Assembly: GCF_900115365.1 (NCBI RefSeq)
Contig: NZ_FOWD01000008.1
Span: forward strand, 62,001 to 126,000
Origin: Anaerocolumna aminovalerica
GTDB lineage: Bacteria; Bacillota; Clostridia; Lachnospirales; Lachnospiraceae
Length of the DNA: 64,000 bases
Direction: 5' to 3'
Below the pieces are notes generated by a model. It was not told where the DNA came from. It did not search any database and saw only the letters and a program-made list of their open reading frames with translations. Below, one piece after another: positions 3,609 to 48,742 of the stretch; position 1 is the first letter of the stretch; every line of letters begins with the position of its first letter. The position numbers and the translations under genes were made by a program.

Positions 3609-5177
3609 CTATTCCTCATATTCAATCTTTATATTTTTAAATATTTTAGAGAGGTCGGGAATATCTTCTATATTTTCCTTCCCCTGAGTTAACAGCTTAG
3701 TTTGTACTTCCACTTCTTTTCCAATGACTTTTGCTATTGTATTTTTTATTTCATTTATATGGGATTCCTCAGAAATAAAATCTTTATCCAAAGACTCTGT
3801 AAATACTAACAACAGCATATTATTATTGCCTATACTGGGCCTTCCGTTGGCTAAAAAAGATCTTACCAAGGGTGAGGTATTAGCCATAATAGTACTCCAG
3901 TTCTTAGCAACTTCCTTTAAATCTTCCGGAACTGCTTTAGGTAAAATTACTGTTTTTTTTTCTTCATCCGGTGTAACCGAAGTTGCAGCGGAAGCCACTG
4001 CTGGCAGGGGTGCTGCCACAATACCTTTTTCCAATTTATTCTCAATTGCTTTAATACGGCTTACTATATCATCCGGATTACCTTCCATTTGTGGTTTACA
4101 TAATTTAATCAGTGCTACTTCCACCATAACTCTTTTTTGGGATGCATATTTAATCTGATTTGACAAATCAGAGAATATGCGGATGTATCGAATTAACGTA
4201 TCCATATCAACCTGTTTTGCCTGCTCTTTTACTACAGCCATATTCTCGGTTGATACCTCTATAATTTCTGAAGCATCTTCAGAAGTCTGTACCAATAGAA
4301 GGTTTCTTAAATACCAGGTAAAATCAATGGTAAATTGAGTTAACTCTCTTCCTGATATAATAAGTTCTTCCAAAAGCTTCATACAGGCAGCTACGTCATT
4401 CTTTTGTATATAGGTCAACAGCCTTGAAAATACCTCTACATCCACAGCTCCTAAGACTTCAAGCACCTTATCATAAGTCAGTTTTTCACCAAAATAAAAT
4501 GCTATACATTGGTCTAACAAGCTTAAGGCGTCACGCATAGATCCGTCTCCCATTCTTGCCACGTATCGCAAGGCTTTTTCTTCCGCATCTACCTGTTCTT
4601 TTTCTGCCAGTTCTTTTAATCTGTCTGTAATGGTTTCTATGGTAATTCTCTTAAAATCATATCTTTGGCACCGGGACAGGATGGTTATAGGAATCTTGTG
4701 TGCTTCTGTAGTAGCCAAAATAAAGATGACATAAGAGGGCGGTTCCTCCAAAGTCTTTAATAAAGCGTTAAAAGCTCCCGCTGAAAGCATATGAACCTCA
4801 TCTATAATATATACCTTAAATCTGCCTTCCGTAGGGGAGTATCTTACCTCTTCTACTATTTCACGAATATTATCAACACCATTATTTGAAGCAGCATCTA
4901 TTTCAATAACATTCATGGAAGTCTGATTATTAATTGCATTACACATGGCACAATCATTACAGGGATTACCATCTATCGGATGTTCACAGTTTACTGTTTT
5001 CGCTAATACTTTTGCAATTGTAGTTTTACCGGTACCTCTTGTTCCGCAGAACAAATAGGCATGACCGATTCTGTCCGCTTTAATCTGGTTCTTCAATGTA
5101 GTCACAATATGATCCTGACCTTTTACATCGTTAAAATCAGTTGGGCGGAACTTTCTATAAAGAGCAGTATATGACAT
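3609..5177 (-). CDS. dnaX: DNA polymerase III subunit gamma/tau
   Basis: The clamp-loader ATPase subunit of the replicative polymerase. The AAA+ domain carries Walker A CGTRGTGKTT (about 44-53), a zinc module of four Cys between 64 and 80, Walker B IIDEVHML and the sensor region LLKTLEEPPSYVIFILATT. Domain III and a C-terminal tau-like extension follow, for 522 residues in total. The start ATG 5177 has GAGGAAG about 7 nt upstream. niaR lies 50 bp upstream on the same strand and ybaB 36 bp downstream. No programmed frameshift site was looked for in detail. Confidence 0.95.
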   Translation of the reverse strand: MSYTALYRKFRPTDFNDVKGQDHIVTTLKNQIKADRIGHAYLFCGTRGTGKTTIAKVLAKTVNCEHPIDGNPCNDCAMCNAINNQTSMNVIEIDAASNNGVDNIREIVEEVRYSPTEGRFKVYIIDEVHMLSAGAFNALLKTLEEPPSYVIFILATTEAHKIPITILSRCQRYDFKRITIETITDRLKELAEKEQVDAEEKALRYVARMGDGSMRDALSLLDQCIAFYFGEKLTYDKVLEVLGAVDVEVFSRLLTYIQKNDVAACMKLLEELIISGRELTQFTIDFTWYLRNLLLVQTSEDASEIIEVSTENMAVVKEQAKQVDMDTLIRYIRIFSDLSNQIKYASQKRVMVEVALIKLCKPQMEGNPDDIVSRIKAIENKLEKGIVAAPLPAVASAATSVTPDEEKKTVILPKAVPEDLKEVAKNWSTIMANTSPLVRSFLANGRPSIGNNNMLLLVFTESLDKDFISEESHINEIKNTIAKVIGKEVEVQTKLLTQGKENIEDIPDLSKIFKNIKIEYEE

Positions 5178-6045: not shown

Positions 6046-7515
6046 ATGTTTAAGAAAAAGAAAGTATCTTCCTGCTCAGAAATGGGAATCATTTTGAATT
6101 ATTTTGAAGACACAATAAATGGGGTTGACGGCGTGTGTCCAACTACAAATCACCCCATGCATACGAAAGTAATTACGCAATTTGAAAAACTTATGGATAA
6201 TGAAAAAAGAATGTCAAATGCCGCAAAAGAAATACTGCAAATTACCAATGCCATAAGTTCTTTTGATGTGGGTATGACTCATATCTCTGATCAGTTGATG
6301 AAATTTGCTGAAGAACTGGCTGTTCTTAGTGAATCTAACCTTGCGATTGTAGAAGAGACCACCGCAACTATGAATCAGGTTACAGAAACCATTGATTGTA
6401 CCGCCAGTACATTAGAGACACTATCCAATGAATCAAAACAGCTGGCAGAAAAAAATAATGAAAGTAAAGATCTATTAAATGAAGTTGTCCATTTAAAAGA
6501 AAATGTTATTGAAGATACTGGCATTATGAGTAACAAAATCGAGCAATTAGTGGATTTGGCAACAGAAGTAGGTAGAATTGTAGACAGCGTACAAGGAATT
6601 GCCAATCAAACAAATTTGCTGGCATTAAACGCAGCTATAGAAGCAGCAAGAGCAGGTGAACATGGTAAAGGTTTTGCTGTTGTAGCAGAGGAAGTCCGTA
6701 AATTATCAGAAGATACCAAAATGAATTTAGACGGTATGAAAAGTTTTGTGGAACATATTTATAATGCATCACAAGAAGGTAAAGAAAGTATGCATAGAGC
6801 ATTAGAATCCACAAATCAGATGAGTGTTAAAATTGATGCCGTTTCAGAAACAGTAGGCAGTAATATAGAAATGCTCCATGGTGTTGTTTCTAACGTAGCG
6901 GATATAGATGAAAGAATGCAAGGTATTAAAATTGCTGCTAATGAAATAAATAAGGCAATGGAAACTTCAAGCATTGATGCCGAAAAGTTAAGCCAGATGA
7001 CATTAAATATTCATAATGATGCTATGGAAAGTGTTGAATATGCAAAAAGTATTGCCGAAATAGATGGTAAATTATCAATCGTGGTAGCAGAATTATATAA
7101 TAACTTAAAAAGCGGAAAAAATGCAGTAACCAATGAGGAACTTTCCAATGTTATAAATAAAGCATCCCAAGCTCATATTGAATGGCTGGAGCAGCTTAAA
7201 ACCATGAAAGATACCTTTGAAATAATCCCATTACAAACAAATCCAAATAAATGCTCTTTTGGTCATTTCTATCATGCTTTAACAGTAGACCATCCTGCTT
7301 TAAAATCGGATTGGGATAAAATCGATGGACTGCACAACGACTTCCATCATTTAGGAGATTCCATGATGAATGCAATCAAAGAAAACAGAAAGAGCGACAT
7401 TGATAGTATATATGAAGAAGCAGTTTCCATTTCTAAAAATATGTTAGCATTATTAAGCAAGGTTAATGGGAATATTGAAGAACTGACTAAAAAAGGAATT
7501 AAAGTTTTTGAATAG
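6046..7515 (+). CDS. Soluble methyl-accepting chemotaxis protein with C-terminal CZB domain
   Basis: A cytoplasmic chemoreceptor-like signalling protein with no membrane segment or HAMP domain. The N-terminal part holds coiled-coil helices. The conserved hairpin tip QTNLLALNAAIEAARAGE is at about residues 188-205 and contacts CheA/CheW. The C-terminus (about 365-445) matches the chemoreceptor zinc-binding (CZB) domain: HIEWLEQL, CSFGHFYH, HPALK and HNDFHHLG supply the His/Cys zinc set. CZB domains sense zinc, and in some systems oxidant stress. The start ATG 6046 has AAGGAG 8 nt upstream. It is a single-gene unit closed by a hairpin terminator. Ligand and partner kinase are unknown. Confidence 0.88.
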   Translation: MFKKKKVSSCSEMGIILNYFEDTINGVDGVCPTTNHPMHTKVITQFEKLMDNEKRMSNAAKEILQITNAISSFDVGMTHISDQLMKFAEELAVLSESNLAIVEETTATMNQVTETIDCTASTLETLSNESKQLAEKNNESKDLLNEVVHLKENVIEDTGIMSNKIEQLVDLATEVGRIVDSVQGIANQTNLLALNAAIEAARAGEHGKGFAVVAEEVRKLSEDTKMNLDGMKSFVEHIYNASQEGKESMHRALESTNQMSVKIDAVSETVGSNIEMLHGVVSNVADIDERMQGIKIAANEINKAMETSSIDAEKLSQMTLNIHNDAMESVEYAKSIAEIDGKLSIVVAELYNNLKSGKNAVTNEELSNVINKASQAHIEWLEQLKTMKDTFEIIPLQTNPNKCSFGHFYHALTVDHPALKSDWDKIDGLHNDFHHLGDSMMNAIKENRKSDIDSIYEEAVSISKNMLALLSKVNGNIEELTKKGIKVFE

Positions 7516-7551
7516 TGTTTAGCACATAATCATAATCAACTATGTATTAGC

Positions 7552-7589
7552 TTAAGTATCATAACTCTCAGGTAATATATGATACTTAA
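7552..7589. repeat. 12-bp perfect inverted repeat
   Basis: TTAAGTATCATA (7552-7563) and TATGATACTTAA (7578-7589) are exact inverted copies around a 14-nt loop, directly after the chemoreceptor gene and before its GC-rich terminator. It may be part of a tandem terminator or a processing hairpin. Confidence 0.5.
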
Positions 7590-7601
7590 ATTATATAAAT
7601 T

Positions 7602-7644
7602 AATAGCCCGTAACCTTAATTAATCAGGTTTTATGGGCTATTTT
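7602..7644 (+). terminator. Rho-independent terminator of the chemoreceptor gene
   Basis: AATAGCCCGTAACCT pairs with AGGTTTTATGGGCTATT around a short AT loop, then TTTTATATTGTTTT. Confidence 0.75.
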
Positions 7645-7811
7645 ATATTGTTTTCAAACCACTTTAATACCTCATAAAAGGAAATTCATACGTAAATATT
7701 ATAAAATAGTATTTTACAAGAAATAACCAGTATTTTTTATTCAAGAGGTACTCTCCAAAATAGAATAATTTAACTTCATAAGGATTACACTATACATTTT
7801 CCAAAAGAGTG

Positions 7812-7820
7812 TGCTATAAT
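7812..7820 (+). promoter_or_regulatory. Extended -10 promoter of the 89-residue protein gene
   Basis: TGCTATAAT (7812-7820) is a perfect extended -10 element; no good -35 is visible. Transcription would begin near 7827, past the ATG-like codon at 7822 and before ATG 7858. The rest of the 7645-7857 gap shows nothing else. Confidence 0.5.
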
Positions 7821-7857
7821 ATTGGACATATTTAGAATGAAAGAAATGGAGAACACT

Positions 7858-8127
7858 ATGTTTAGATTGTGGGCCAAGGTATTTAAGGACAATCGTATGC
7901 AAAAGGATCTGGTAATATGCAACGATGATACTTCCTTAAGCCGAACAAAAAAAATATTTGCAGCAGTGGATGAAATTTGTTATCAGTTTGACTTATCTAA
8001 ACCAATTTGGTTAGATGTAACTGTTTCGGACTTTAAGAAGCATGATAAAACAAGATTCACCCAGGATAATTTTATAGATTCCATTGATTTTGATTATTTG
8101 GAGATACATGTAATAGAGGAAGATTAA
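7858..8127 (+). CDS. Conserved hypothetical protein, 89 residues
   Basis: A small soluble protein I do not recognise by function. It begins MFRLWAKVFKD, has a central helix-like part (SLSRTKKIFAAVDEIC) and ends in an acidic strand (DYLEIHVIEED); there is no signal peptide or membrane segment. The start at 7858 is chosen because TGGAGA lies 7-8 nt upstream and because the promoter -10 ends at 7820, leaving the earlier in-frame start (7822) outside a normal transcript. A secreted peptidase gene follows 41 bp later, possibly co-transcribed. Function unknown. Confidence 0.65.
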   Translation: MFRLWAKVFKDNRMQKDLVICNDDTSLSRTKKIFAAVDEICYQFDLSKPIWLDVTVSDFKKHDKTRFTQDNFIDSIDFDYLEIHVIEED

Positions 8128-8140
8128 TATTCCCGGGTTA

Positions 8141-8164
8141 GGCGCTAAAGCGTCGGAATTGAGG
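8141..8164 (+). promoter_or_regulatory. Hairpin-RBS motif (GGCGC-loop-GCGTC then GGAATTGAGG)
   Basis: A 5-bp hairpin GGCGC/GCGTC with loop TAAA is fused to CGGAATTGAGG, the ribosome-binding site of the peptidase gene at 8169. Nearly the same 24-nt arrangement precedes the gene at 39820 and, on the minus strand, cbiM (21213-21236); a looser copy is at 33857-33881. Confidence 0.5.
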
Positions 8165-8168
8165 TTGT

Positions 8169-9179
8169 ATGAGAGGAATTCGCCGAAAACTAATAGTAAT
8201 ATGCCTATGTATTATTTTATTTGCAGTATTTTCCCTCTTGAGGTATAGAAAAAGCAGTAAGGATAATGATACAAAAGGAAAGCAGACACAAAGTAATCAG
8301 GTAACCAAGACAGAAGATTCAGCTTCGGATGAAAGTACAATGCCGGATAAACATTCAGTGCCGGATGAAAGTACAACACCAGATGAAAATACAACATCAG
8401 GTAAAAACACCAACTCTGCTTCAGCTAATAACAAAGAATCTTCCGAATCTCCTACTACTTCTACAGATAAAAAGCCGACTTCCGATACGGAAGTTACTAA
8501 TGTTCTGAATGAAGTACCGGATACAAGAGAAGCTTTGAATCAGCTTCCGGCAGAGACAATATTAAACATCAGCAAGGTGGAAGATATAGCAATGGATACT
8601 TATTTTTATTATGAAGAAATATCTGAGAATGTATTTAATAAAATAAAAGGGAAATCATACGGTGAAGATTGTACGGTTCCCCGGAAAGACTTAAGGTACA
8701 TAAGGGTACTCCATTATGGATTTGATGAAAAAACCCATATTGGAGAACTAATTGTAAATAAAGCAATTGCAAAGGACATAGTCGAAATATTTAAAGAACT
8801 ATATGAAGCAAAATACCCTATAGAAAAAATGGTATTGATAGATGCATATGACGCTGATGACAATACCTCCATGGCGGACAATAATACCTCTTCTTTTAAT
8901 TTCCGTCCGGTACCTGGCGGAAGCCATTTATCCAAACATGCCCTTGGGTTAGCTATCGATATAAATCCTTTGTATAATCCATATGTTCAATATATGAAAG
9001 ATAAAACAGTAATCCTGCCTGTTGAGGGCTCCAAATATGCGGACCGAAGTCTGGATAACCCTTATTATATCCGGGAGAATGATGTCTTGTTTAAAGCATT
9101 TACTAAACGGGGTTTTTCCTGGGGGGGATTCTGGAAAACCGAACCGGATTATCAGCATTTTGTAAAGAAAATAGATTAA
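8169..9179 (+). CDS. Membrane-anchored M15-family peptidoglycan peptidase
   Basis: A D-Ala-D-Ala carboxypeptidase/L-Ala-D-Glu endopeptidase-like zinc enzyme facing the cell wall. One N-terminal membrane segment (IVICLCIILFAVFSLL, about 9-24) is followed by a Ser/Thr/Asp-rich linker with repeated DEST/DENT units (about 50-115). The C-terminal M15 domain carries SKHALGLAIDINP (zinc His and Asp) and WGGFWKTEPDYQHF (third ligand His). Length 336 residues. The start ATG 8169 has TTGAGG 4 nt upstream inside the hairpin-RBS motif. It may share a transcript with the 89-residue gene before it. Substrate bond not determinable from sequence. Confidence 0.85.
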   Translation: MRGIRRKLIVICLCIILFAVFSLLRYRKSSKDNDTKGKQTQSNQVTKTEDSASDESTMPDKHSVPDESTTPDENTTSGKNTNSASANNKESSESPTTSTDKKPTSDTEVTNVLNEVPDTREALNQLPAETILNISKVEDIAMDTYFYYEEISENVFNKIKGKSYGEDCTVPRKDLRYIRVLHYGFDEKTHIGELIVNKAIAKDIVEIFKELYEAKYPIEKMVLIDAYDADDNTSMADNNTSSFNFRPVPGGSHLSKHALGLAIDINPLYNPYVQYMKDKTVILPVEGSKYADRSLDNPYYIRENDVLFKAFTKRGFSWGGFWKTEPDYQHFVKKID

Positions 9180-9183
9180 CTAA

Positions 9184-9307
9184 AGTGCCTGATACATGGC
9201 ATATATCTTTTGGGGATCACTCCTTTAAATCAAGCAGTTTTTAATCTGAACTGTTTGCTTCAAGGGGAGTATCTCAAAAGGCATTATACCACCATGTATC
9301 AGGCACT
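9184..9307. repeat. 124-bp imperfect palindrome with 16-bp perfect terminal arms
   Basis: AGTGCCTGATACATGG (9184-9199) is exactly inverted at 9292-9307. The inside continues to pair: CTTTTG-GAT-ACTCC against GGAGTATCTCAAAAG, and CAAGCAGTT against AACTGTTTGCTT, with a loop near 9245. A T-rich stretch follows on the plus strand. It could terminate the peptidase gene, or be a MITE-like element or a structured RNA. Confidence 0.55.
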
Positions 9308-9324
9308 AACTTCTTTTATTAAGC

Positions 9325-9438
9325 TTAAAAACATTTTTTAAACATTCTGAACATAATCGCACTACAATCGGTATTTGTATTCAAAATATAAACATCTAAT
9401 TCCACTTTTGCTATATCATGAACCTGAAGCATGTTCAT
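9325..9438 (-). CDS. Possible small ORF, 37 residues
   Basis: Between pgi and the palindrome the minus strand has a 37-codon frame starting MNMLQVHDIAKVELD and ending FRMFKKCF. AAGGA lies 8-9 nt before ATG 9438. The composition looks protein-like (mixed charged and hydrophobic, two Cys), and the frame is also open for a few codons upstream of the ATG. It could be a genuine small gene or the 3' remnant of a lost gene; no function can be proposed. Confidence 0.3.
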   Translation of the reverse strand: MNMLQVHDIAKVELDVYILNTNTDCSAIMFRMFKKCF

Positions 9439-9476
9439 AAACTTAGTTCCTTCATTCGTTTTTATATCATAAAGGA

Positions 9477-10826
9477 TTATAATCTTTTAAGCAATTCTTC
9501 TCTTTGCTTTTCAAACCCTGGTTTACCTAATAATGCAAACATGTTTTTCTTATAACTTTCCACACCTGGTTGATCAAAAGGATTTACTCCAAGAATGTAA
9601 CCGCTTACACCACAAGCAAATTCAAAGAAATAGAATAATTGACCTAAATAAAATTCATTTTGCTCCGGTATATTAATAATTAAGTTAGGAACACTACCGT
9701 CTGTATGTGCCAGTCTGGTTCCCTTCATAGCGCTCTTATTAATAAAGTCTACACTTTGTCCGGTTAGGTAATTTAAACCGTCCAAATCTACTTCTTCCTC
9801 TTCTATTAATATTTCACAAGTTGATTTCTCAAGATTCATCACTGTTTCAAATAAAGTTCTTTGACCATCCTGAATAAATTGTCCCATGGAGTGTAAATCT
9901 GTAGTCAAATCAACGGAGGCAGGAAAAATACCCTTTTGATCTTTTCCCTCACTCTCTCCATAAAGCTGTTTCCACCATTCCGAAACAAAATGCAAAGATG
10001 GCTCATAATTAGCCAGTATTTCTATTGTTTTTCCTTTTCTCAGTAAAATATTACGGATAGCTGCATAAAGTACTGCATCATTATTCTCATAAGAGCTGTT
10101 AATGCAATGCTCTCTCATTGCAGCTGCACCTTCCATTAATTTTACAATATCCGCACCACTTACTGCAATTGGAAGCAAGCCTACTGCTGTTAGAACAGAA
10201 TAACGGCCCCCAACTTCATCCGGAACGATAAAGCTTTCATAACCTTCCTCAGTAGCCAGGTTCTTTAGAGCTCCTCTTGCTTTATCTGTGGTTGCATAAA
10301 TTCTCTTGGCAGCCTCTTCTTTACCATATTTCTCTGTCAGCATCTTTTTAAATACTCGAAATGCAATGGCAGGTTCTGTTGTTGTACCTGATTTACTAAT
10401 CATATTGATAGAAAAGTCACGGTCTCCAATTACTTCAATTAGGTGCTTCATATAAGTACTGCTTATGTTGTTTCCAACATAATAGATTTCAGGTGTTTTT
10501 CTGATTTCTTTTGAAACAGAATTATAAAAACTATGTCTTAAAAATTCAATTGCTGCTCTGGCACCTAAATAAGAACCGCCGATACCTATTACCAATAATA
10601 CTTCCGAATCATTTTGAATCTTCTTAGCTGCGGCTTGTATACGCGCAAACTCTTCTTTATCATAATCTATGGGTAAATCAATCCAACCTAAAAATTCATT
10701 ACCAGGACCTTCCTTTTTTACCAGCTCCTCTTTTGCATTTTCTGCGATTCTTTCCATCATTGTAATTTCAGAATCGGAGATAAAACCTTTTGCTGATGAA
10801 TAATCAAACGTTACCATACTTTTCAT
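9477..10826 (-). CDS. pgi: Glucose-6-phosphate isomerase
   Basis: The cytosolic glycolytic enzyme interconverting glucose 6-phosphate and fructose 6-phosphate. Family motifs are clear: [16 protein letters not shown], the phosphate-binding [23 protein letters not shown] and [10 protein letters not shown]. About 449 residues is the usual length for the Firmicutes type. The upstream in-frame ATG at 10847 overlaps the ribosome-binding site AAAGGAG, which is correctly spaced (9 nt) for ATG 10826, so the shorter start is chosen. It is a single-gene unit with its own promoter. Confidence 0.95.
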
Positions 10827-10885
10827 TTTCTTATGCTCCTTTGACATTCCAAATGTAATTAACAGTTACTAAAATCTTTCCACTT

Positions 10886-10914
10886 ATTCTATCAAAGTCA
10901 ACTTATTTTATCAA
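10886..10914 (-). promoter_or_regulatory. SigA-type promoter of pgi
   Basis: On the minus strand TTGATA (10914-10909), a 17-bp spacer and TAGAAT (10891-10886), about 60 bp before the pgi start. Confidence 0.5.
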
Positions 10915-11030
10915 TATGCAAATCTAATAAAAGGAAATAAATGATTCTAGTCTATTTGTATTGAAATATAAATAATTTTATATTAATGCTGGTTGTACGA
11001 AATAACTCGTATACTCTAACATTTATATAT

Positions 11031-11073
11031 AAAAAATCCTCCAAGCATTAATCTATCAAACATCGCTTGGAGG
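11031..11073 (-). terminator. Rho-independent terminator of the coiled-coil protein gene
   Basis: On the minus strand a perfect 9-bp stem CCTCCAAGC/GCTTGGAGG with an 18-nt loop is followed by ATTTTTT, 13 bp after the stop codon at 11086. Confidence 0.85.
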
Positions 11074-11085
11074 TGCAATTACAGC

Positions 11086-11883
11086 TTAATTCACATCAGA
11101 ATTGGTATTGTCATCCTTGTCCTCTGTCTTTTCTGCTGTATCCCGTTTATCTTTATCCTTTAGTTCTTTCTCTAAATCATGGTTCTTAGCGGTTTTTGAG
11201 CTTACTGCTTCCGTTACTTGATTCTCATTAATGTCCTTAATTTCTTCGTACACCTTACTTAAGCTTTCACCTATTTTAGCGGTCAAATCAGATGCTTTAT
11301 TTTGTAATTCAGCAAGACGTTCATATTTAGATTTATGTACTCCCTTACGTGATGCATCAAGTTTAATTTCTGTTCCTAAAACTCTTAACTCACCCTCTGC
11401 TTTGGTTTTCACAGAAGACACCACTTTCGCTTGATCCAAGCTTGAAGACATATTTACCATTGAATGCAACCGTTCCGTTTCAATCTCATCTTCTGTTTTT
11501 GGCTTTTTGTATGCCACTTTTTTTTGTTCTTCAACTTGCTGCTTTAATTGCTCAGAGGTAATTTGAGCAATTTGATTATCTATGTTTTTAATCTGTTCCT
11601 CAAAAGTTTCAAGCCTTGTTTTAATGCTGTCCATACTTCCCCCTTTTTCAAGGGTTCTGCCGATAAGCTCATTTTTATTTTCAATTATCTTTTCTTTTTG
11701 CTTTGTTAAGGATTCAATAAGACTCTTTGCCTTTCCCAAAGAACTAATCGATATGGAATCCGAATCTTTTCCTCCTTGCTGTTCACTTCCCTTTATAGCA
11801 AAGTTTTTTTCATACAAGCCTTGATTAATAGGAGTCGAATTAAAAAAGTTGTTTTTTATAGTAATATTCATATTAGTACCCAT
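11086..11883 (-). CDS. Hypothetical coiled-coil protein, 265 residues
   Basis: I do not recognise a functional family. No signal peptide or membrane segment is visible. After an Asn-rich N-terminus (MGTNMNITIKNNFF), residues about 48-125 form a long charged coiled coil, then a second helical region (about 140-225), and the C-terminus is a Lys/Asp/Glu-rich disordered tail. Such proteins occur as structural or cell-surface-associated factors in spore-forming Clostridia, but the role here is open. GAGGAGG precedes ATG 11883 by 7-8 nt. It is a single gene with a strong terminator. Confidence 0.7.
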   Translation of the reverse strand: MGTNMNITIKNNFFNSTPINQGLYEKNFAIKGSEQQGGKDSDSISISSLGKAKSLIESLTKQKEKIIENKNELIGRTLEKGGSMDSIKTRLETFEEQIKNIDNQIAQITSEQLKQQVEEQKKVAYKKPKTEDEIETERLHSMVNMSSSLDQAKVVSSVKTKAEGELRVLGTEIKLDASRKGVHKSKYERLAELQNKASDLTAKIGESLSKVYEEIKDINENQVTEAVSSKTAKNHDLEKELKDKDKRDTAEKTEDKDDNTNSDVN

Positions 11884-12068: not shown

Positions 12069-13844
12069 ATGTATTACAGCAGTGGTAATTATGAAGCTTT
12101 TGCACGTCCGGTTAAACCAGAAGGTGTTGACCGTAAATTAGCTTATATTATAGGTTCCGGGCTTGCTGCTCTGTCCGCGGCATGTTATCTCATTCGTGAC
12201 GGCCAAATGAAAGGAGAACGGATTCATATTCTTGAAAAGGAAGATATCCCCGGTGGCGCATGTGACGGTTACGAGCACTCTGACCGGGGATTCGTAATGA
12301 GAGGCGGACGCGAAATGGATAATCACTTTGAATGTATGTGGGATTTGTTCCGATCCATTCCTTCTATTGAAACAGAAGGAGTCAGTGTCCTGGATGAATA
12401 TTACTGGCTAAATAAAGAAGACCCTAACTATTCCCTGATGCGGGCTACCATAAACCGGGGAGAGGATGCTCATACCGAAGGTAAGTTTAGTCTGTCCGAT
12501 AAAGGCAGCATGGAAATAATGCGCCTGTTCTTCACTCCGGATGAGAAGTTATATGATAAAAGTATTGAAGAATTGTTTGATGATGAAGTACTAAATTCCA
12601 ACTTCTGGCTATACTGGCGTACCATGTTTGCATTTGAAAACTGGCATAGCGCCCTTGAAATGAAAAGATATATTCACCGCTATATCCACCATATTGGAGG
12701 CCTTCCGGACTTTAAAGCTCTTAGATTCACCAAATATAACCAATATGAATCCATGATTCTCCCTATGATTAAATATCTGGAAAGTCATAATGTTCAGTTC
12801 CATTACGGAACACAAGTTGTCAATGTGGAATTTGATATTCAAAATAATAAAAAAACAGCCAAAAAAATCAGCTGTCTCCGAGAGGGGAAGGAAGATAACA
12901 TCAACTTAACAGAAGATGATTTGATATTTATAACTAATGGCGGATGTGTTGAGAACTCTACCTTAGGTGATCAGAATCACCCTGCTGAATTTAAAACGGA
13001 ATTAAAACCCGGTGGCGGTTGGGATATGTGGCGTAAGATTGCTATACAGGACTCTTCCTTTGGTTACCCGGACAAATTCTGTTCCAATCCGGAAAAAACT
13101 AACTGGATGTCTGCTACAGTAACCACCTTAGATGATAAAATCCCACCATATGTTAAGAAGATTTGTAAACGTGATCCATTCAGTGGAAAGGTTGTTACCG
13201 GTGGTATCGTTACAGTTGTTGACTCCAACTGGTTACTCAGCTGGACCTTCAATCGTCAGCCTCAGTTCCGTACACAACCTAAAGGTCAGCTGGTAGGCTG
13301 GATTTATGGGCTGTTCACAAATAAACCGGGTAACTATGTGAAGAAGACCATGACTGAGTGTACCGGAAAGGAAATATGTATGGAATGGCTCTATCATATG
13401 GGTGTTCCTGAAAATGAAATCGAAGGACTTGCAGAACACAGTGCTAATACCATTCCATGTATGATGCCTTACATTACTGCTTTCTTTATGCCTCGTTCTG
13501 CCGGTGACCGTCCTGCAGTTGTACCACAAGGAAGTGTTAACTTTGCATTCATCGGTCAGTTTGCTGAAACAGAACGGGATACCATCTTTACAACGGAATA
13601 TTCCATTCGTACTGCCATGGAAGCTGTTTATACACTTTTGGATGTAGACCGGGGGGTACCAGAGGTTTGGGGAAGTGTTTATGATATACGGGCACTTTTA
13701 AATGCAACGGTACAGTTAATGGATGGTAAGAAAATAACAGAACTTAATCTTAGTTTAAAACAGAAATTGGCACTAAAAGAAGTCCTTAAAAAAATAAAGG
13801 ATACTGAAATTGAAAGGCTGCTTAAAAAATATCATGTAATTTAA
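12069..13844 (+). CDS. ohyA: Oleate hydratase (first copy)
   Basis: FAD-dependent fatty-acid hydratase (the former myosin-cross-reactive antigen family) that adds water to the 9-double bond of oleic and linoleic acid, generally seen as detoxification of host or dietary fatty acids. The FAD fold has IIGSGLAALSAACYL (27-41) and the conserved RGGREM with the catalytic Glu82 position used in characterised OhyA proteins. The 591-residue length is normal. AAAGGAGG lies 7 nt before ATG 12069. It is a single gene ended by a hairpin. A second copy at 45738 is clearly related but distinct, for example GTGIGAL in place of GSGLAAL. Confidence 0.93.
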   Translation: MYYSSGNYEAFARPVKPEGVDRKLAYIIGSGLAALSAACYLIRDGQMKGERIHILEKEDIPGGACDGYEHSDRGFVMRGGREMDNHFECMWDLFRSIPSIETEGVSVLDEYYWLNKEDPNYSLMRATINRGEDAHTEGKFSLSDKGSMEIMRLFFTPDEKLYDKSIEELFDDEVLNSNFWLYWRTMFAFENWHSALEMKRYIHRYIHHIGGLPDFKALRFTKYNQYESMILPMIKYLESHNVQFHYGTQVVNVEFDIQNNKKTAKKISCLREGKEDNINLTEDDLIFITNGGCVENSTLGDQNHPAEFKTELKPGGGWDMWRKIAIQDSSFGYPDKFCSNPEKTNWMSATVTTLDDKIPPYVKKICKRDPFSGKVVTGGIVTVVDSNWLLSWTFNRQPQFRTQPKGQLVGWIYGLFTNKPGNYVKKTMTECTGKEICMEWLYHMGVPENEIEGLAEHSANTIPCMMPYITAFFMPRSAGDRPAVVPQGSVNFAFIGQFAETERDTIFTTEYSIRTAMEAVYTLLDVDRGVPEVWGSVYDIRALLNATVQLMDGKKITELNLSLKQKLALKEVLKKIKDTEIERLLKKYHVI

Positions 13845-37924: not shown

Positions 37925-38100
37925 TGTAGTAGCTTCATCCAAGGCAGGTCTCCTGACTAAAAGATCATCATTAACAGCAGTCTTCCCGATTAATATCAGT
38001 GACGTATTTGCCGCAACTCCCTTATCACAGTGACGAGTTCGTACAGGATTTTCACCTGTTTCCCTTTTCATCAGAACCAATTTGGTATTCTGACACCTTA
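37925..38100 (-). promoter_or_regulatory. Cobalamin riboswitch (aptamer)
   Basis: On the minus strand the B12 box AGTCAGGAGACCTGCC is at 37958-37943. Upstream lie the core parts AAGGGAAACAGGTGAAAATC and CACTGTGATAAGGGAG of the cobalamin aptamer, with the outer stem starting near GGTGTCAG (38099). Binding of adenosylcobalamin would favour the downstream terminator and shut off the whole 20-kb operon. Confidence 0.95.
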
Positions 38101-38125
38101 AATGTATTATATTTTTAATAACAGT

Positions 38126-40306: not shown

Positions 40307-42250
40307 CTAGTTTTTAAAAATAGACTGCATATTTTTTCTTACTGCCTTTAACAATTCTTTAGGCAGTTTCTCTACTTGTTCTCCAATTATTACTCCATGT
40401 GGTTGTTTATATCCTTCATTCCATACAAAGTTAAAGATTTTTTCGTTTGTTTCACTATTTTTCCCTATTTGAAATGCATAAACTTCCACATGTTTATATA
40501 ATAATTCTTGAACTGCTTCTTTTGCTGTTCCTGGGAAACTTGATGCGCCGTCCGTAATTTCAAAAACAATCTTTATTTGTTTTCCTTTTTTCAGTTCTCT
40601 TTCCTGCAGTGAGGTAATGTTATTGGATATTTCTCTAAGGCAGCTTGCATCATCTGTTGCTCCCCCTGTTGCATCCAACTTTACTATTGAGCGGATGATA
40701 TCGCTTTTTTCTTTTTCTTTCAGATTTTTATGGTTAAAATCTTTTACATTATAATACTTACTGCCAAAAAACCAGGTCTCACTTAAAACTTCTACTTTTT
40801 GATTTAGCAGTTCTGCATTGCCTTTTAAATATCCGTTAAAATCATCTATAGACAACAAAGTCACTGCCAAAGCTTTTCTGGCTGCTTCAATTTTTGACGC
40901 ATCCATTGATCCGGAATTATCTATTACAAATGAGATTTCTATTCTTTCAGGCAATACATCTGCCTGAGTCTCCAATAGATATTTATTAAAAATAGGCAGA
41001 TTTTTGTAATTTCCCTTTTTTTCAGCTTCTACAAAATCCGGATAAGTATTAATAAAGCTGTCTATATCTAATTTCCCATTTACCTGATCTTCTTTTTTTA
41101 CACTAATTTCTTTTTTTGCGTCCCCTATTAACTTTTTCCAAAATTGACGCATTTGTTCTCTTTCTGGTTTCATTTTATTAGAATAAAATTGAAACAATTG
41201 TTGATCTGATTGGCTTATACCATAAACCTCTAAATCTACCTTTCCTTGTAGCGTGTTTTGTATGCTTTCACTTGATTGGTCTTGTTGATTCTGCATCTCT
41301 TCTAAAATTTTTTCTACTTCCTCTTGTGTAGATTCCAGTGAATCCGGTATTTCATCTGATTTTGATGGTTCAAAAGAATTCTTACTACCTTTAATCAGTT
41401 CTTCTTCCTGTCCTTTTGATTTATAAAATATCATTTCATCAATTTCCTGTTTCCATAATTGTTCAAAAGTTGGAAAGATGAAAGAGCGAATGAATGGATC
41501 TCTATCTATAATTCCCCGATTATTATTAATTTGTCTTACTAATTGAGTATGAATATAATCAATTAAAGGCTGACTAAAGATTTTTTTGTCAAAAGGATTT
41601 TCAATACATTCTTCAATTTTAGGCTCTGCTTTATATAATTCAATCATTAAGAAACTGTTTGCAAAAGCTCTGTGCCTGGGCATCTGAGAAATTGACTCCA
41701 TAGTCCTGCCTGTTTGTTTCATATAATAAACAATCTTCTCAAAATTTTCTTCATCCCTGTATATAGGACACATTTGTAAAACTCTTAAAAACGCTGTCAG
41801 TTTATCCAAAAGATACAAGAAATCAAGAATTTCTTTTCTTACATAATTAGAAATAACTTTTGATTGGTATGCAGGATCATTAACCAGCCCTTCTTTTTTT
41901 ATCCTGGCTAAAACATAGTTTGTCATGTGATCAATTTCTTTCTGCCAATCGTTTTTTCTGTTCCGATATTTTTTAGCTTGTTTTTTCCAATCCGCATATA
42001 ATGCTAATTCATAGTAGATATGCCACATGATTTGATTTTCATCTAATTCTCTATCTAAAAAACTTTCCAATGGCAAATACAAGACTCCTTTAGACGGATC
42101 CAACAGAAATCTTTGTAGTTTCGGATCCGGAATATACATCAAACCAGAATCTCCTGTAAATGTGGCTAATGAGCGTTGTTCTTTCTGTAAAAATTCTTCG
42201 CAATGCCTTTTAGATTCCTCTATTAGTGCTTGTTCATCAAGTTCAAACAT
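40307..42250 (-). CDS. vWA-domain protein of a MoxR/propeller/vWA module
   Basis: A large cytosolic protein with a C-terminal von Willebrand A domain whose metal site is intact: VIDNSGSMDASK (DxSxS), GGATDDASC (Thr) and FEITDGASSF (Asp). The N-terminal two thirds are helical and charged with no family I recognise; a Glu/Gln-rich stretch lies in the middle. Two starts are possible (42256 and 42250); AGGAGG is better spaced from 42250 (about 10 nt), giving about 647 residues. It is the last gene of a three-gene set; 13 bp separates it from the propeller-like gene. vWA proteins of this kind act as adaptors of MoxR AAA+ ATPases. Confidence 0.75.
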   Translation of the reverse strand: MFELDEQALIEESKRHCEEFLQKEQRSLATFTGDSGLMYIPDPKLQRFLLDPSKGVLYLPLESFLDRELDENQIMWHIYYELALYADWKKQAKKYRNRKNDWQKEIDHMTNYVLARIKKEGLVNDPAYQSKVISNYVRKEILDFLYLLDKLTAFLRVLQMCPIYRDEENFEKIVYYMKQTGRTMESISQMPRHRAFANSFLMIELYKAEPKIEECIENPFDKKIFSQPLIDYIHTQLVRQINNNRGIIDRDPFIRSFIFPTFEQLWKQEIDEMIFYKSKGQEEELIKGSKNSFEPSKSDEIPDSLESTQEEVEKILEEMQNQQDQSSESIQNTLQGKVDLEVYGISQSDQQLFQFYSNKMKPEREQMRQFWKKLIGDAKKEISVKKEDQVNGKLDIDSFINTYPDFVEAEKKGNYKNLPIFNKYLLETQADVLPERIEISFVIDNSGSMDASKIEAARKALAVTLLSIDDFNGYLKGNAELLNQKVEVLSETWFFGSKYYNVKDFNHKNLKEKEKSDIIRSIVKLDATGGATDDASCLREISNNITSLQERELKKGKQIKIVFEITDGASSFPGTAKEAVQELLYKHVEVYAFQIGKNSETNEKIFNFVWNEGYKQPHGVIIGEQVEKLPKELLKAVRKNMQSIFKN

Positions 42251-42263
42251 ACTCATCTCCCTC

Positions 42264-43514
42264 CTACCTATAAAGTGGCATATTCCACAAATCTTTTGGT
42301 GTATTGATCCGATCAATGTATAACAAATTCAATTTACCTTCTATATCCATGACTAAATATTTTGAAATACCCAATTTAAAAACATCTGTAAAAAAGATAT
42401 CTTTCATAGTTGCCTCTTCATTTAATTTCCAATCTCCAAAATTCTCTTCCAGTAAGTATAAGATTCCATCTTCACTTACAATTACAGCTGTACCTTTTAT
42501 TGATTGAACATCAAATAAATTACCTTTCAAATTATCCAATTCCATTTTTATATCTTTTGAATCTTCATAGAAAGAAAGAACTTTAAGCTGTCCTTTATTA
42601 CCTGTTACTATAAGGGAATTCCTGCTGCCATCTTCATCTTCCAAACATTTGATTTGCCTTATCTCATCATCCAGCAAATCAACTTCTTCAGTAATAGTAA
42701 GTTGTTTGTTCTTATATTTAAGAAAGTTCAATTTTCCCGTCTTTGTTCCGACTGCAAAATAATCATCTTTTATTTTTCCTAATGTAGTCCAATTTGAAAT
42801 CATGCAGTCCATATCTTTGTGAGATATTAAACGATACTCCTCATTAACTTTTATTATTTCGAATAAACGTAATGCTTCATCTCCATTTTCCACTAAAAAC
42901 AAACCATCTCCAATTGGGAAACATCTTCCAAATCCATTCAAATCAGAATCTGCCTGAATCCTTTTCACTTCAATCTGTCCATCCACATTAGGCAGTTTAT
43001 CAAAGTTATCACTTGAAAGCAGATAACATCCCCCTCTGACTCCCAAAAGCAAAATTTCTTTGTCATTTAATTTATATATAAATGAAATTGTCTCTTTTAT
43101 TTCCTTGATAGGTGGGCTCCATTCTCCCTCCATTTGTTTATGGTTCGAAGAATCAACTTCTGTATCTATATAAAAAAACTGAACTTTTCTATCTACACTG
43201 CTTGTAATAAAAAGATTTTCATTCACCTGTAACGAAGTTTGTAAAAAGCTATCAAAGCTGAAAGCCCCCAATTGTTTTATTGGACTTATCTTCATTGAAA
43301 TCTTCCTGAAATTATTTGCGTAAACTCGGTAATAAGGAATTAAGCCAGTTAATAATGTTTCTTCTGTTTGTAAAAGTTTTTCCAGCTCTTCTTCGAAGCC
43401 TTCCTCTAAATACCCATTTCCTTGGCATTCATCCAGCTTTTTTCTCAGCTTTTCAACTTCTTCCTTAAACTTCTTTCCATCTGCTAATAAACCTTTTTTC
43501 ATTTTTATACTCAT
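42264..43514 (-). CDS. Propeller-like protein of the MoxR/vWA module
   Basis: A 416-residue soluble protein that I cannot place in a named family. After an N-terminal helical part (about 1-60) it shows repeated blade-like strands of the type FxVxxxxGxLxxL: FLVENGDEALRLFEI, FAVGTKTGKLNFLKYK, LIVTGNKGQLKVLSFYE, AVIVSEDGILYLLEE and YLVMDIEGKLNLLYID. This suggests a beta-propeller (WD40-like) scaffold. It lies between the MoxR ATPase (4-nt overlap) and the vWA gene, so the three products very probably form one complex. No catalytic motif seen. Confidence 0.65.
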   Translation of the reverse strand: MSIKMKKGLLADGKKFKEEVEKLRKKLDECQGNGYLEEGFEEELEKLLQTEETLLTGLIPYYRVYANNFRKISMKISPIKQLGAFSFDSFLQTSLQVNENLFITSSVDRKVQFFYIDTEVDSSNHKQMEGEWSPPIKEIKETISFIYKLNDKEILLLGVRGGCYLLSSDNFDKLPNVDGQIEVKRIQADSDLNGFGRCFPIGDGLFLVENGDEALRLFEIIKVNEEYRLISHKDMDCMISNWTTLGKIKDDYFAVGTKTGKLNFLKYKNKQLTITEEVDLLDDEIRQIKCLEDEDGSRNSLIVTGNKGQLKVLSFYEDSKDIKMELDNLKGNLFDVQSIKGTAVIVSEDGILYLLEENFGDWKLNEEATMKDIFFTDVFKLGISKYLVMDIEGKLNLLYIDRINTPKDLWNMPLYR

Positions 43515-45625
43515 TGCACATCTTCTCCATTACCTTCCATATATTCAAGCAGGTCTTTTGAATGCTCTAAATGAGATAATTGTTGGTCCAGTTCCTGGTA
43601 TTTCTTCCCATCAATCTGAGGTAAATCATCATTATCAATTTCAAGAGCTTCTTTTAATTCTTTTGAAAAAGCTTTCCTTGGTGTTCCTTTTCCAAATACC
43701 AGGTGAACTACATCTAAATAACTTAAGCTTTCTGTTAATGGACGAACATAGTGATATGGACAGGTACGAATTTCGTCATATGTTGTGGTTGCTTCTCCTG
43801 TGGCTTTTGTCTCTACGTTCCATCCTTCCCCTTTAGGAAAAAATCCAAACCGCACCCCTTGTGATAGAATATAGTTTTGGTCATCAGGATAAGTGATTGA
43901 ACTAATAAAGCCATCCCACAAGGCTTTGCTTAAGTCTTTTTCTTCCCCCACATTCCAATTATCTAGAACGTGCAAGATATTTCGTATTGACAATACAGAT
44001 TCCCTAAGCTCCGGTTCATCCCCTCCAAAGTCTTTTTGAGCTTCGTCATCTTTCCATTTTCCCATAAAAACATTCTGAGTAACCTTACATAATTGAGAAA
44101 ACCGAAATAATTCTTCTAATGTCCTTTTTGAGTCAGGAACATGAAGATTTCCATTTTTATCAGCCAACCGGGCTATTATGACCCTAAAAAGTTCGTTTTT
44201 CTCCGGAAACTCTTGATCTTCTAAGGAACCGGTTGTTTTTTGTGATACATAATTGTATTCAATGGTTACAAAACGTGATTTAAATGCTGGATTTAACTCA
44301 TTGGTCCCTTCATAATTAACCATTTGGCTTGACAGGTTTCCTGTGCCAATAAATCCGAATCCTGGTTTAATCAAAACAGGGCCAACTCCAGTAATATAAG
44401 CTGTATTGCCTGCATGACGCTGTAAAATATCATTTAAAGCGATTAAGTTTTGCATGGCAATTGTATTTAATTCGTCTACAATGACTGGACGTCCTTCTTT
44501 TACTGCAATCAAAATTTCTCTTTCTATTTTTTTGATTTCAGTACCGAAAGCACTATTACTTGCTACTAATAAATCAGAAAAACTTTTCCATATCTGAATC
44601 TTAAGCTGTAGCTGTTCTTCATCTGTCATCTGCTCCAGCCTGGTTTTATGCTCATCCATCCACGCATAAAAATCTCCTATAATCATGTTCAGATAGTCGG
44701 AATAAGATCCTTTGGAGAAACTGCTTTTTAAAGACAAGGTTTTCTCTACAAACATATCTTCATAAGTTAAATTATGAGAACCGGATATAAACAGTGGCTG
44801 TAAAGATTCTATTTCCTCCTCACTTCCATTAGTAAATATGTTCTTATAATAAAGTTTTCTTTCATTAAGAAATTCTCCAAACTTTCCAATCCCGTCTTTT
44901 TCTGTGGCATTTGGATTTACAGAAAACCACTCTTCCATTTTGTATTCCAATTCACTTTGTATTCTGTTTTGAACAGTAAAATCCACCGCTGCTTCCGTGG
45001 CTAATTGCGTTTTTCCACTTCCTAAATGTCCTACAATATATACCGGGACACCTAAATTCAAGGAATCTATTACTTTTTGTTTTGCATTAGCTACATAAGG
45101 GACAGTTACCAACCGCTGTTGATGTACCGTTTCTATATCACTTAACAATTGACGTCTATAATAAAACTCCCAAGCTTCCGGGGAATTTTTCAGAATCATT
45201 TCTAATTCTTTTTCCAATTCTTTTATACGGTCAACCCGGTATCTTGTAGCTGAACTACTGCCGTAATGACTGTAATTATTACTTTCGCTATTGACTCTTC
45301 TTTCCCAGCGAAGAAAAAACTTTTCATATTCTATTAAGTTCTCAATTTCTTGTATTTCTTTTCCCTTGTTTGCTGTTTCTTCTTCTACATATGCTTTGTA
45401 TTTTTTGTAATACACATTACCTTCTTTAGTATCAGAAGGAATTTTGTCAGCCCTTTTTTCAAATCTTCGGAAGGCTTTAAAAAATGCCCCTTGCTCTTCT
45501 ACTTTCTTATGATTCTCATATTCCGATGATTTTAAGGCTTCCTCCCGCAAATCATCTTCATACCGGCTTTGCATTTCTCCTATAGTAGGAATATAAACTT
45601 GCTTGAGATTTGTTTGCTCAATCAC
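43511..45625 (-). CDS. MoxR-like AAA+ ATPase
   Basis: A 704-residue ATPase leading the three-gene module. Residues about 1-165 are charged coiled coil with a Ser/Tyr-rich insert. The AAA+ core has Walker A IVGHLGSGKTQLATEAA, a long insert (about 160 residues), Walker B PVIVDELNTI, sensor 1 FGFIGTGNLSS and an arginine-finger region NPAFKSRFVTIEYNY. This is the MoxR arrangement. The start is GTG 45625 with AGGGAGGAAG 6-7 nt upstream; no other start fits better. MoxR-vWA pairs remodel protein targets; three-gene versions have been linked to conflict and stress responses, which is only a hypothesis here. Confidence 0.78.
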   Translation of the reverse strand: MIEQTNLKQVYIPTIGEMQSRYEDDLREEALKSSEYENHKKVEEQGAFFKAFRRFEKRADKIPSDTKEGNVYYKKYKAYVEEETANKGKEIQEIENLIEYEKFFLRWERRVNSESNNYSHYGSSSATRYRVDRIKELEKELEMILKNSPEAWEFYYRRQLLSDIETVHQQRLVTVPYVANAKQKVIDSLNLGVPVYIVGHLGSGKTQLATEAAVDFTVQNRIQSELEYKMEEWFSVNPNATEKDGIGKFGEFLNERKLYYKNIFTNGSEEEIESLQPLFISGSHNLTYEDMFVEKTLSLKSSFSKGSYSDYLNMIIGDFYAWMDEHKTRLEQMTDEEQLQLKIQIWKSFSDLLVASNSAFGTEIKKIEREILIAVKEGRPVIVDELNTIAMQNLIALNDILQRHAGNTAYITGVGPVLIKPGFGFIGTGNLSSQMVNYEGTNELNPAFKSRFVTIEYNYVSQKTTGSLEDQEFPEKNELFRVIIARLADKNGNLHVPDSKRTLEELFRFSQLCKVTQNVFMGKWKDDEAQKDFGGDEPELRESVLSIRNILHVLDNWNVGEEKDLSKALWDGFISSITYPDDQNYILSQGVRFGFFPKGEGWNVETKATGEATTTYDEIRTCPYHYVRPLTESLSYLDVVHLVFGKGTPRKAFSKELKEALEIDNDDLPQIDGKKYQELDQQLSHLEHSKDLLEYMEGNGEDVQ

Positions 45626-45666: not shown

Positions 45667-45705
45667 AATTAAAATCCCGATTTAAAAAAATTCGGGATTT
45701 TAATT
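45667..45705. terminator. Bidirectional-looking terminator hairpin
   Basis: AATTAAAATCCCGA pairs perfectly with TCGGGATTTTAATT around an A-rich loop. It lies right after the second oleate hydratase gene (minus strand) and just before the MoxR start, so it ends the hydratase transcript. Confidence 0.75.
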
Positions 45706-47531: not shown

Positions 47532-47643
47532 TATAACTTCCTCCCTTTCTTTTCCGCTAAACATTAATAATAATAAAAGTGTCTAGCATGTTTTTTTGTT
47601 ATGCACTTATAATATAGTCTTTTTTATTCTTTTTCATTAGATA

Positions 47644-47700
47644 AAATAGCTGCGGTGTTGGATTTTTGAACACCGCAGCTATTTTGCCTAATTTTTAGGC
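47644..47700 (-). terminator. Strong terminator of the LysR gene (double hairpin)
   Basis: AAATAGCTGCGGTGTT pairs with AACACCGCAGCTATTTT (47644-47685); next to it GCCTAA/TTAGGC (47686-47700). On the minus strand the stem ends in ATTTTAT. Confidence 0.85.
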
Positions 47701-47739
47701 ATTGTATTTGAATTGTCTGATTAGTAAATCTTTTGTACC

Positions 47740-48621
47740 TTAATCCCTTACACTATTCTTGATTATCTCAATAAGTGCTTTAAAACTATTTGTTTGAAAT
47801 TTATCTTTATGGAATACTATATGATTTATATTAACTAACTCAAAATCATTAACCTTTATTTCAAAGAGTTCTCCACTATTAATTTCTTCTTCTACTAGTA
47901 TTTTAGGCAGCACACTTATTCCCAAATTGTGTTTTACTCCATGAATAAGTGCCTGTGAATTTATACTTGTCCAATCCGGATTTGCTCTTAAATTATGAAG
48001 TAATAATGCGCTATCAAAAACATCACGTATTGCGCTTCCTTTTTCTCTAAGTAATAATCTTTCTTGTATTAAATTATTGATTTCTACAGGTTCTTCTATG
48101 GCTAATTTATGTTTAGGAGAACATATTACAGCTAATTTATAGGAGGAGAATGGAATTTTTATTAATTCTTCATTATAGATGACCCCTTCTATTAAGCCTA
48201 TATCAATTTCGTTATTATATAACATCTCTTCAATTGTTCCTGCATTTCCAATGGTTACTTTTGTGGGCGTATTCTTGTAAATGGCTTCAAAATTTACTAT
48301 AGCTTTAGGTAGTATAAAATTCGCTATAGTTATACTAGATCCGATTTTGATAGTGGCACTGTCTTCTAATTCTTTAACATTTTGCTCTAAATTATCATAC
48401 AAATCTAACAGCTTTATTACCTTTCCCAAAAATAACTTACCAGTTTCATTTAAATAGATCTTTCTTGAAATTCTATCAAATAAACACACCCCTAAATCAC
48501 TTTCTAATTCACTTATTGCGTTTGAAACTGCTGGCTGGGTTATAAATAATTTTTCTGCTGCCTTTGTAATGCTTTCTTCTTCGCATACCATTTTAAAAAT
48601 ACGCAGGTATCTTATATTCAT
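47740..48621 (-). CDS. LysR-family transcriptional regulator
   Basis: Starts MNIRYLRIFKMVCEEESIT; the winged helix includes TQPAVSNAISELESDLG, followed by a substrate-binding-like domain. The frame opens six codons earlier, but AAGGAG lies 7 nt before ATG 48621, giving 293 residues. It is divergent from the chromate-transporter pair (48743), so it most likely controls it. Effector unknown. Confidence 0.87.
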   Translation of the reverse strand: MNIRYLRIFKMVCEEESITKAAEKLFITQPAVSNAISELESDLGVCLFDRISRKIYLNETGKLFLGKVIKLLDLYDNLEQNVKELEDSATIKIGSSITIANFILPKAIVNFEAIYKNTPTKVTIGNAGTIEEMLYNNEIDIGLIEGVIYNEELIKIPFSSYKLAVICSPKHKLAIEEPVEINNLIQERLLLREKGSAIRDVFDSALLLHNLRANPDWTSINSQALIHGVKHNLGISVLPKILVEEEINSGELFEIKVNDFELVNINHIVFHKDKFQTNSFKALIEIIKNSVRD

Positions 48622-48742
48622 ATCTAACTCCTTATTCATTACTATTTAGTTATGTGTTTCATAAAATTATACTATTATACTTATGTCAAATCAAGGTGTA
48701 TAATAAACAAAACTGATAATTGATCTCTTGGAGGTACTATTT

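Follow-up and report, generated by a model that had tools for sequence, protein, structure and literature searches.

A MoxR-type AAA+ ATPase, a WD40-type propeller and a vWA protein encoded behind an oleate hydratase gene: a possible enzyme-servicing machine in Bacillota

MoxR-type AAA+ ATPases are common and, to our knowledge, few of them have a known client. An AAA+ subfamily that keeps to the gene of one enzyme names a candidate client, and we describe such a case from Anaerocolumna aminovalerica, where a three-gene unit (the triad) encodes a MoxR-type ATPase, a WD40-type β-propeller protein and a von Willebrand factor A (vWA) protein behind the gene for an oleate hydratase (OhyA). The unit lies in a 64,000-nucleotide stretch of contig NZ_FOWD01000008.1, the whole of which is referred to as the window. 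The closest described systems are couples of a MoxR AAA+ protein and a vWA partner. CbbQ/CbbO is such a couple, with Rubisco as its target; RavA/ViaA is another, which resembles the triad by description and is not known to include a propeller or OhyA. NorQ/NorD is described as remodelling its enzyme by means of ATP and a metal-ion-dependent adhesion site (MIDAS) (PMC9976466). RavA/ViaA, like the triad, pairs a MoxR AAA+ protein with a two-domain vWA protein and is tied to membranes and anaerobic respiration.

The triad shares with NorQ/NorD and CbbQ/CbbO the MoxR AAA+ protein and vWA partner, which in those systems remodel one enzyme. It departs from them in its ATPase, which at 704 residues has long extra regions, in possessing a third, WD40 protein, and in its neighbour, a surface-bound flavoenzyme, whereas their targets are cNOR and Rubisco. 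The systems of Kaur et al. (2020) likewise combine MoxR, vWA and a propeller in one gene group (PMC7159879). As described there, their propeller follows the vWA domain in a single fused protein, their P-loop is often (not always) GXXXTAKS and their third protein carries a membrane-spanning segment, tetratricopeptide repeats and a propeller. In the triad, by contrast, the propeller has a gene of its own and the vWA domain ends its protein, the P-loop is GHLGSGKT in 42/42 aligned ATPases and the third protein consists of a helical hairpin and a propeller only; set against those systems, the triad is found nearly always in Bacillota. Membership of the Kaur propeller systems was rejected on three tested features.

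The first full relatives were found in three further genomes from the same order, each with the gene order TetR-like regulator, OhyA, AAA+, middle gene, vWA. Scanning a single genome for each of 84,980 species with an alignment of these four AAA+ proteins yielded 51 loci, the three just mentioned among them (L066, L021 and L037). By tblastn, OhyA lies directly 5' of the AAA+ gene and on the same strand in 51/51 loci of this subfamily, the propeller-like middle gene is present in 50/51 and the vWA gene in 48/51. The missing vWA genes are accounted for by a contig end (L026) and masked stretches (L047 and L054), and in L063 the middle gene has been lost by deletion. The first-pass annotation of the window had proposed a three-gene module and had named co-occurrence as one test of it. 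The genes are real and do occur together, but the annotation missed their context, since the OhyA gene immediately 5' on the same strand went unreported. Its notion of a chaperone-like MoxR-vWA couple with a third component is supported, that component being the propeller and the triad a constant unit.

By title the scan loci belong to Bacillota (Clostridium, Tissierella, Peptoniphilus, Anaerococcus, Vagococcus, Erysipelothrix and Lachnospiraceae among others), the exception being a contig of an uncultured actinobacterium (L065). A 42-row AAA+ profile found the AAA+ gene in 17/120 genomes of one family, and by coordinates OhyA adjoins it in 15/17; at least 13 of these 15 loci repeat scan loci (13/13 compared OhyA rows are identical), so little new linkage is added. 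A sample of the order held the AAA+ gene in 4/392 genomes and OhyA in 47/392, the four within the 47, and a sample of the phylum held them in 1/398 and 19/398, respectively. An obligate partnership was rejected; OhyA without the triad is common. In its own genome the triad AAA+ gene is the single copy of its kind. Where all four proteins could be aligned (30 loci), pairwise identities have medians of 0.83 for OhyA, 0.55 for AAA+, 0.49 for vWA and 0.32 for the propeller. Spearman correlations of these identities, the pairs being non-independent, are 0.965 (propeller-vWA), 0.912 (AAA+-vWA), 0.901 (AAA+-propeller) and 0.808 (OhyA-AAA+).

The window ATPase scores 24.4 bits for AAA_5 against a cut-off of 22, and the domain is present at E 0.01 in 42/42 aligned proteins. 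There is a long N-terminal region and a long insert between Walker A and Walker B. Residues K205/T206, D384/E385, N430 and R451, which we take to be Walker A, Walker B, sensor 1 and a candidate arginine finger, are identical in 42/42 proteins; judged by these residues, the protein belongs to the MoxR/dynein-related AAA+ clade. A MoxR-type ATPase of this length with intact Walker motifs had been claimed from the first reading, correctly so. The AAA+ profile had no match at E 0.01 among Protein Data Bank (PDB) sequences.

The vWA proteins carry PF00092 in 41/41 cases and a complete MIDAS, as the first-pass annotation had stated: D446/S448/S450, T534 and D569, the residues we presume to form it, are identical throughout. 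Both alignments, of AAA+ (42) and vWA (41) proteins, omit split or truncated genes. In the AlphaFold2 (AF2) model of the vWA protein, with a predicted local distance difference test (pLDDT) score of 84.6 and a predicted template-modelling (pTM) score of 0.53, the vWA domain extends to the C-terminus (model range to 649) and the relative placement of the domains is unsure. A fold search gave the MIDAS of Rea1 as best match (Z 20.7), followed by NorD (18.8) with ordinary vWA domains close behind, and barely covered the N-terminal domain; the vWA profile found two weak matches among PDB sequences.

For the middle protein, the second of the two triad proteins with a predicted fold, the AF2 model (pLDDT 88.3, pTM 0.84) consists of a helical hairpin and a WD40-type propeller, with seven four-stranded blades, by our reading of the strand list of the model, in a closed ring. 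The earlier count of at least five blade-like repeats was thus right as to a propeller and too low as to its blades. Pfam gave weak propeller matches only. A blade profile built from a sister protein (sister triads are described below) finds 25/39 propeller proteins against 3/234 shuffled or reversed sequences; the call of seven blades rests on the model because this profile matched one stretch only of the window protein. The 50 rows shown by structure comparison are, by entry title, WD-repeat subunits of assemblies. An enzyme was considered, a confident match to an ordinary metabolic one having been named at the outset as a result that would count against the module, and found no support: phytase propellers appeared only at E 0.48-0.58. 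No 19-residue segment of this protein exceeds a mean hydropathy of 1.15, and no transmembrane segment was found in any of the three window proteins (maximum 19-residue hydropathy 1.16). In L055, L058-L062 and L064-L066 (L008 being the same locus as L066) the middle gene is cut to about 200-280 residues; seven such proteins, when aligned, retain the hairpin and the last blades and lack most of the propeller.

Ytm1 and Rsa4 are WD40 proteins. Both are bound by the MIDAS of Rea1 (midasin), which is described as dislodging assembly factors from pre-ribosomes (PMC6624252). Rea1 is one eukaryotic protein of 5000 residues that acts in ribosome assembly, whereas the triad comprises separate proteins without a ribosome link, and the extra domain is a helical hairpin in the triad WD40 protein and a ubiquitin-like domain in the Rea1-substrate system; the likeness is one of analogy only. 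On that analogy the triad might be, in principle, a bacterial counterpart of midasin and its WD40 substrates, in which the MIDAS would grip the WD40 adaptor, perhaps through Glu356, and the AAA+ ring would pull on the adaptor and so reset a membrane-bound flavoenzyme. We regard this particular scheme as doubtful. Glu356 is kept in 37/38 full-length and 7/7 short forms of the propeller protein; it lies in a strand and so may be structural.

Because OhyA lies directly upstream in 51/51 loci and AAA+/vWA couples with an enzyme target provide precedents, we take OhyA to be the candidate client. That the AAA+/MIDAS/WD40 machine remodels or recycles OhyA at the membrane is the reading we favour, with a probability of about 0.52. 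We know of no AAA+ machine that releases or activates a fatty-acid hydratase. The C-terminus of Staphylococcus aureus OhyA binds anionic membranes, and the exit of its product and flavin adenine dinucleotide (FAD) is treated as an open question, with no helper protein mentioned in the available text (PMC10847778); oleate hydratases are reported to hold FAD weakly (PMC8994360). In the proposed cycle OhyA, as a weak FAD binder on the anionic membrane face, would draw unsaturated fatty acids from the bilayer as in S. aureus, and would have to reopen to free the hydroxy fatty acid and FAD. The propeller protein would dock onto OhyA, the MIDAS of the vWA protein would grip the propeller protein or OhyA itself, and a putative hexamer of the ATPase, coupled through the vWA protein, would use ATP to alter the shape of OhyA or its hold on the membrane. 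The direction of work may be activation, loading or release, and the outcome could be an exchange of product and FAD, or OhyA loaded or detached. If true, Vagococcus and certain anaerobes have an enzyme that detoxifies fatty acids and is serviced by a machine driven by ATP. Among open-licence papers none was found that joins oleate hydratase or myosin-cross-reactive antigen with MoxR, and in the broader literature oleate hydratase never appeared, among the matches listed, together with a von Willebrand term. An account of the surroundings of the Staphylococcus OhyA gene mentions regulators and, in the part available, not this triad (PMC11669549).

A hairpin in the gap between OhyA and AAA+ may bear on the amount of machine made. 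The best 45-nucleotide fold of the window gap has an energy of -16.2 kcal/mol (z -4.1). Among the 52 loci, the window included, 40 have an AAA+ start that could be aligned as well as an intact OhyA open reading frame (ORF), and 37 of these have a gap of at least 50 nucleotides; in 34/37 the hairpin beats all 60 dinucleotide shuffles (median z -5.0), the others being L039, L060 and L061. The gaps of L058, L059 and L066 (15-26 nucleotides) are too short for the test. The letters vary, from AAAATCCCGA...TCGGGATTTT in the window to the TTGGGACG...CGTCCC type in L042, and the hairpin was absent from the output of a simple terminator scan of the window. We read it as a putative attenuator: only part of the transcripts would read on past ohyA, and the machine would be made in small and the enzyme in large amounts.

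The linked OhyA of the window matches the oleate hydratase model NF010584 with 861.9 bits (cut-off 567) and PF06100 at 5e-203, and is of the same family as the oleate hydratases 7KAV and 4IA5 (E 8e-203 and 8e-196). It differs from 7KAV in a four-residue insert before the GRDT motif and in the triad behind its gene. Linked OhyAs are probably active because 50/50 aligned sequences retain the catalytic Glu of the RGGRE loop; their four commonest FAD-lid forms fit GGxxxG. A quick tree of 81 OhyA rows, which leaves out L025 (OhyA cut by a contig end) and L041 (OhyA split), places the 50 linked ones on one side of a branch with support 99. The insert (GQFAET-LDxP-GRDT) is found in 50/50 linked OhyAs, as LDxP in 49 and MDEP in L065, against 0/31 unlinked ones from the same order, which amount to 30 distinct sequences since the second window copy equals L081. 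As a mark of the triad the insert was nevertheless rejected: among L122-L150 it is also in all 16 OhyAs that lack a triad or are second copies. The pattern was read in 27 of these 29 loci; the other two have OhyA rows identical to those of L038 and L048, which carry it. The second oleate hydratase of the window (12069-13844, plus strand) lies 32 kb from the linked copy and has neither insert nor triad. In the wider 87-row tree described below, long stem branches are seen for OhyA groups without a triad (L143-L146, L147-L150, L127 and L142) and for the group with the short middle gene, as though OhyA evolved more quickly once the machine was gone or reduced; recent triad losses are without long OhyA branches, and L052, which has a triad, also has a long one.

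Several observations weigh against OhyA as the dedicated client. The scan patterns and the profile were built from OhyA-linked sequences, so the counts of 51/51 and 15/17 describe that subfamily. In the same 120 genomes OhyA occurs in 44 and the AAA+ gene in 17. The insert marks an OhyA clade and not the triad, and an 87-row OhyA tree contains 17 same-clade OhyAs without an adjoining triad, the module label needing nine changes (the 63 triad rows include 13 repeats of named loci, and in L136 the OhyA is a second copy from a genome with the triad elsewhere). Same-clade OhyA stands alone in the neighbourhoods of L119, L153 and L154, and it would seem that OhyA can work without the triad because such enzymes often stand without it. 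OhyA identities track those of the propeller and vWA proteins less well (Spearman 0.67 and 0.68) than the identities of the three triad proteins follow one another. The C-terminal 45 residues have a median net charge of 0 (-5 to 3) in linked and +2 (-1 to 7) in unlinked OhyAs; the less positive C-terminus suits help with loading more than extraction, and may simply reflect relatedness. Full termination, with the triad transcribed separately, would also fit the gap hairpin. Finally, two sister triads (L151 and L152) have the same order AAA+, propeller, vWA and no adjoining OhyA.

The propellers of the sister triads match the window type over 367 columns with 97.4% probability. Such triads without OhyA suggest an adaptor-based design with exchangeable clients, in which the sister triads, if this is true, would serve other clients. 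They occupy positions 52-5092 (L151) and 6572-11314 (L152), both on the minus strand; from a reading of the sequences, a DUF362/ferredoxin-like gene lies 5' of the former and an adenylosuccinate-synthase-like gene 3' of the latter.

The existence of sister triads also suits a different explanation, that the triad is a machine for membrane or lipid stress which is co-induced with OhyA by unsaturated fatty acids and has as its target the membrane itself or some membrane protein other than OhyA. RavA/ViaA is reported to bind anionic phospholipids and to alter membrane lipids (PMC9489729), and the three triad proteins, having no transmembrane segment, would be peripheral. Shared induction is plausible: tblastn finds a TetR homologue in 39/51 loci, upstream in 38 and downstream in one (L052), and the palindrome TGCCTAA-nnn-TTAGGCA occurs with at most three mismatches in 21/48 other upstream regions against 0.014 expected per region (49/52 regions were used, and the window, which supplied the consensus, is uncounted). 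We think this explanation possible, if rather unlikely. Mere co-induction would permit separated genes, whereas the AAA+ gene stays beside OhyA in 51/51 loci, and the two exceptions among the 17 profile hits are of the divergent sister type.

The first-pass annotation had suggested a conflict or defence role, and a ternary MoxR-vWA module with the propeller as sensor was weighed accordingly. Propeller-bearing systems of this kind are described as likely conflict systems (PMC7159879); the propeller is moreover the fastest-changing part of the triad, at a median identity of 0.32 against 0.55 and 0.49, and the presence of the unit is patchy (4/392 genomes of the order). PADLOC assigned no defence family to the three proteins, its best match (7e-05) covering 70 residues in the P-loop region. 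The proposed check for a defence island, run in the window only, returned among ten neighbours matches for two ABC transporters alone; these, to mad3 and mad8 (best 5.5e-25), were judged cross-hits. No homologue of the AAA+ protein or of its sister was found in plasmids and phages by tblastn, nor of the AAA+ alignment in viral contigs. No effector-like gene recurs beside the unit among the flanking ORFs of the 51 loci, and the constant neighbours are OhyA and its regulator only. The defence role was therefore rejected, and we hold it to be highly improbable; the triad is probably an OhyA helper rather than an anti-virus system.

The flanks bear too on the suggestion that the triad is a general chaperone which was merely transferred together with OhyA and has no functional link to it. 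Among 509 flanking ORFs only scattered ABC-type proteins and the short middle gene recur in at least five loci, a survey from which masked ORFs, those below 120 residues and those matching any of seven query proteins (TetR, LysR and HgdB included) had been removed. The unit seems to sit in many different surroundings because few flanking genes recur. With nothing constant in the flanks, a block found in many families, and the OhyAs of the window and of Clostridium mobile 93% identical, co-transfer has some appeal. We nevertheless judge it improbable: gene order and strand are constant, the gap hairpin is kept with changed letters, and linkage persists down to about 70% OhyA identity.

The packed minus-strand arrangement reported from the first reading agrees with the ORF list and the sequence. 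OhyA is the first gene of the linked unit, followed by AAA+, propeller and vWA. The AAA+ and propeller genes overlap by four nucleotides (ATGA), and the vWA gene begins with ATG at 42250, 13 bp past the propeller stop, with an alternative ATG at 42256; the listed 669-residue TTG frame is over-long. The features are collected in Table 1.

Table 1. Features of the OhyA-triad unit and its upstream region, in window coordinates
Feature	Position	Strand	Basis or remark
Oleate hydratase (OhyA/MCRA family), 597 residues	45738..47531	-	NF010584, PF06100; ORF listed to 47564, likely ATG 47531
Terminator/attenuator-like hairpin AAAATCCCGA...TCGGGATTTT in OhyA-AAA+ gap	45671..45702	-	Fold energy against shuffles
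MoxR/dynein-related-class AAA+ ATPase, 704 residues, GTG start	43511..45625	-	AAA_5, invariant ATPase residues
WD40-type seven-bladed β-propeller with N-terminal helical hairpin, 416 residues, ATG start (candidate adaptor)	42264..43514	-	AF2 model
Two-domain vWA protein: helical N-terminal domain, acidic linker, C-terminal vWA	40307..42250	-	PF00092, complete MIDAS
Inverted repeat TGCCTAA-nnn-TTAGGCA, 5' of OhyA	47685..47701	.	Candidate operator of the TetR regulator of related loci
LysR-family regulator, 5' of OhyA	47740..48639	-	PF03466/PF00126

The window thus has a LysR gene where most related loci have TetR; the nearest TetR relative in its own genome is on another contig and 43% identical. 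TetR is a weak marker of the unit, since TetR-like genes (28-52% identical) also lie near the unlinked OhyAs L119, L120, L121, L153 and L154. A GC-rich hairpin at about 47640-47680, between the regulator and OhyA and beside the palindrome, has similar counterparts in many loci and is probably the terminator of the regulator. An Rfam search gave no riboswitch family 5' of the OhyA or AAA+ gene and one sub-threshold match inside the vWA gene. Both the triad (G+C 0.315-0.356) and the LysR gene (0.292) are poorer in G+C than the window on average (0.371), which would fit a recent arrival.

Unit genes lie in two or more frames in single genomes, through either decay or sequencing errors: vWA in L030, L034, L043 and L048, the propeller in L044, AAA+ and propeller in L057, and OhyA and TetR in L041. 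A gene that reads as 2-hydroxyglutaryl-CoA-dehydratase-like lies 3' of vWA in only two loci, both of Lachnospiraceae (L064, 14409-15689; L066, 14251-15558). Elsewhere in the window, a cobalamin riboswitch at 37926-38115 (minus strand) heads a gene group whose tested members are B12 genes; the true cobQ start is placed further in because the riboswitch overlaps the listed start of that ORF.

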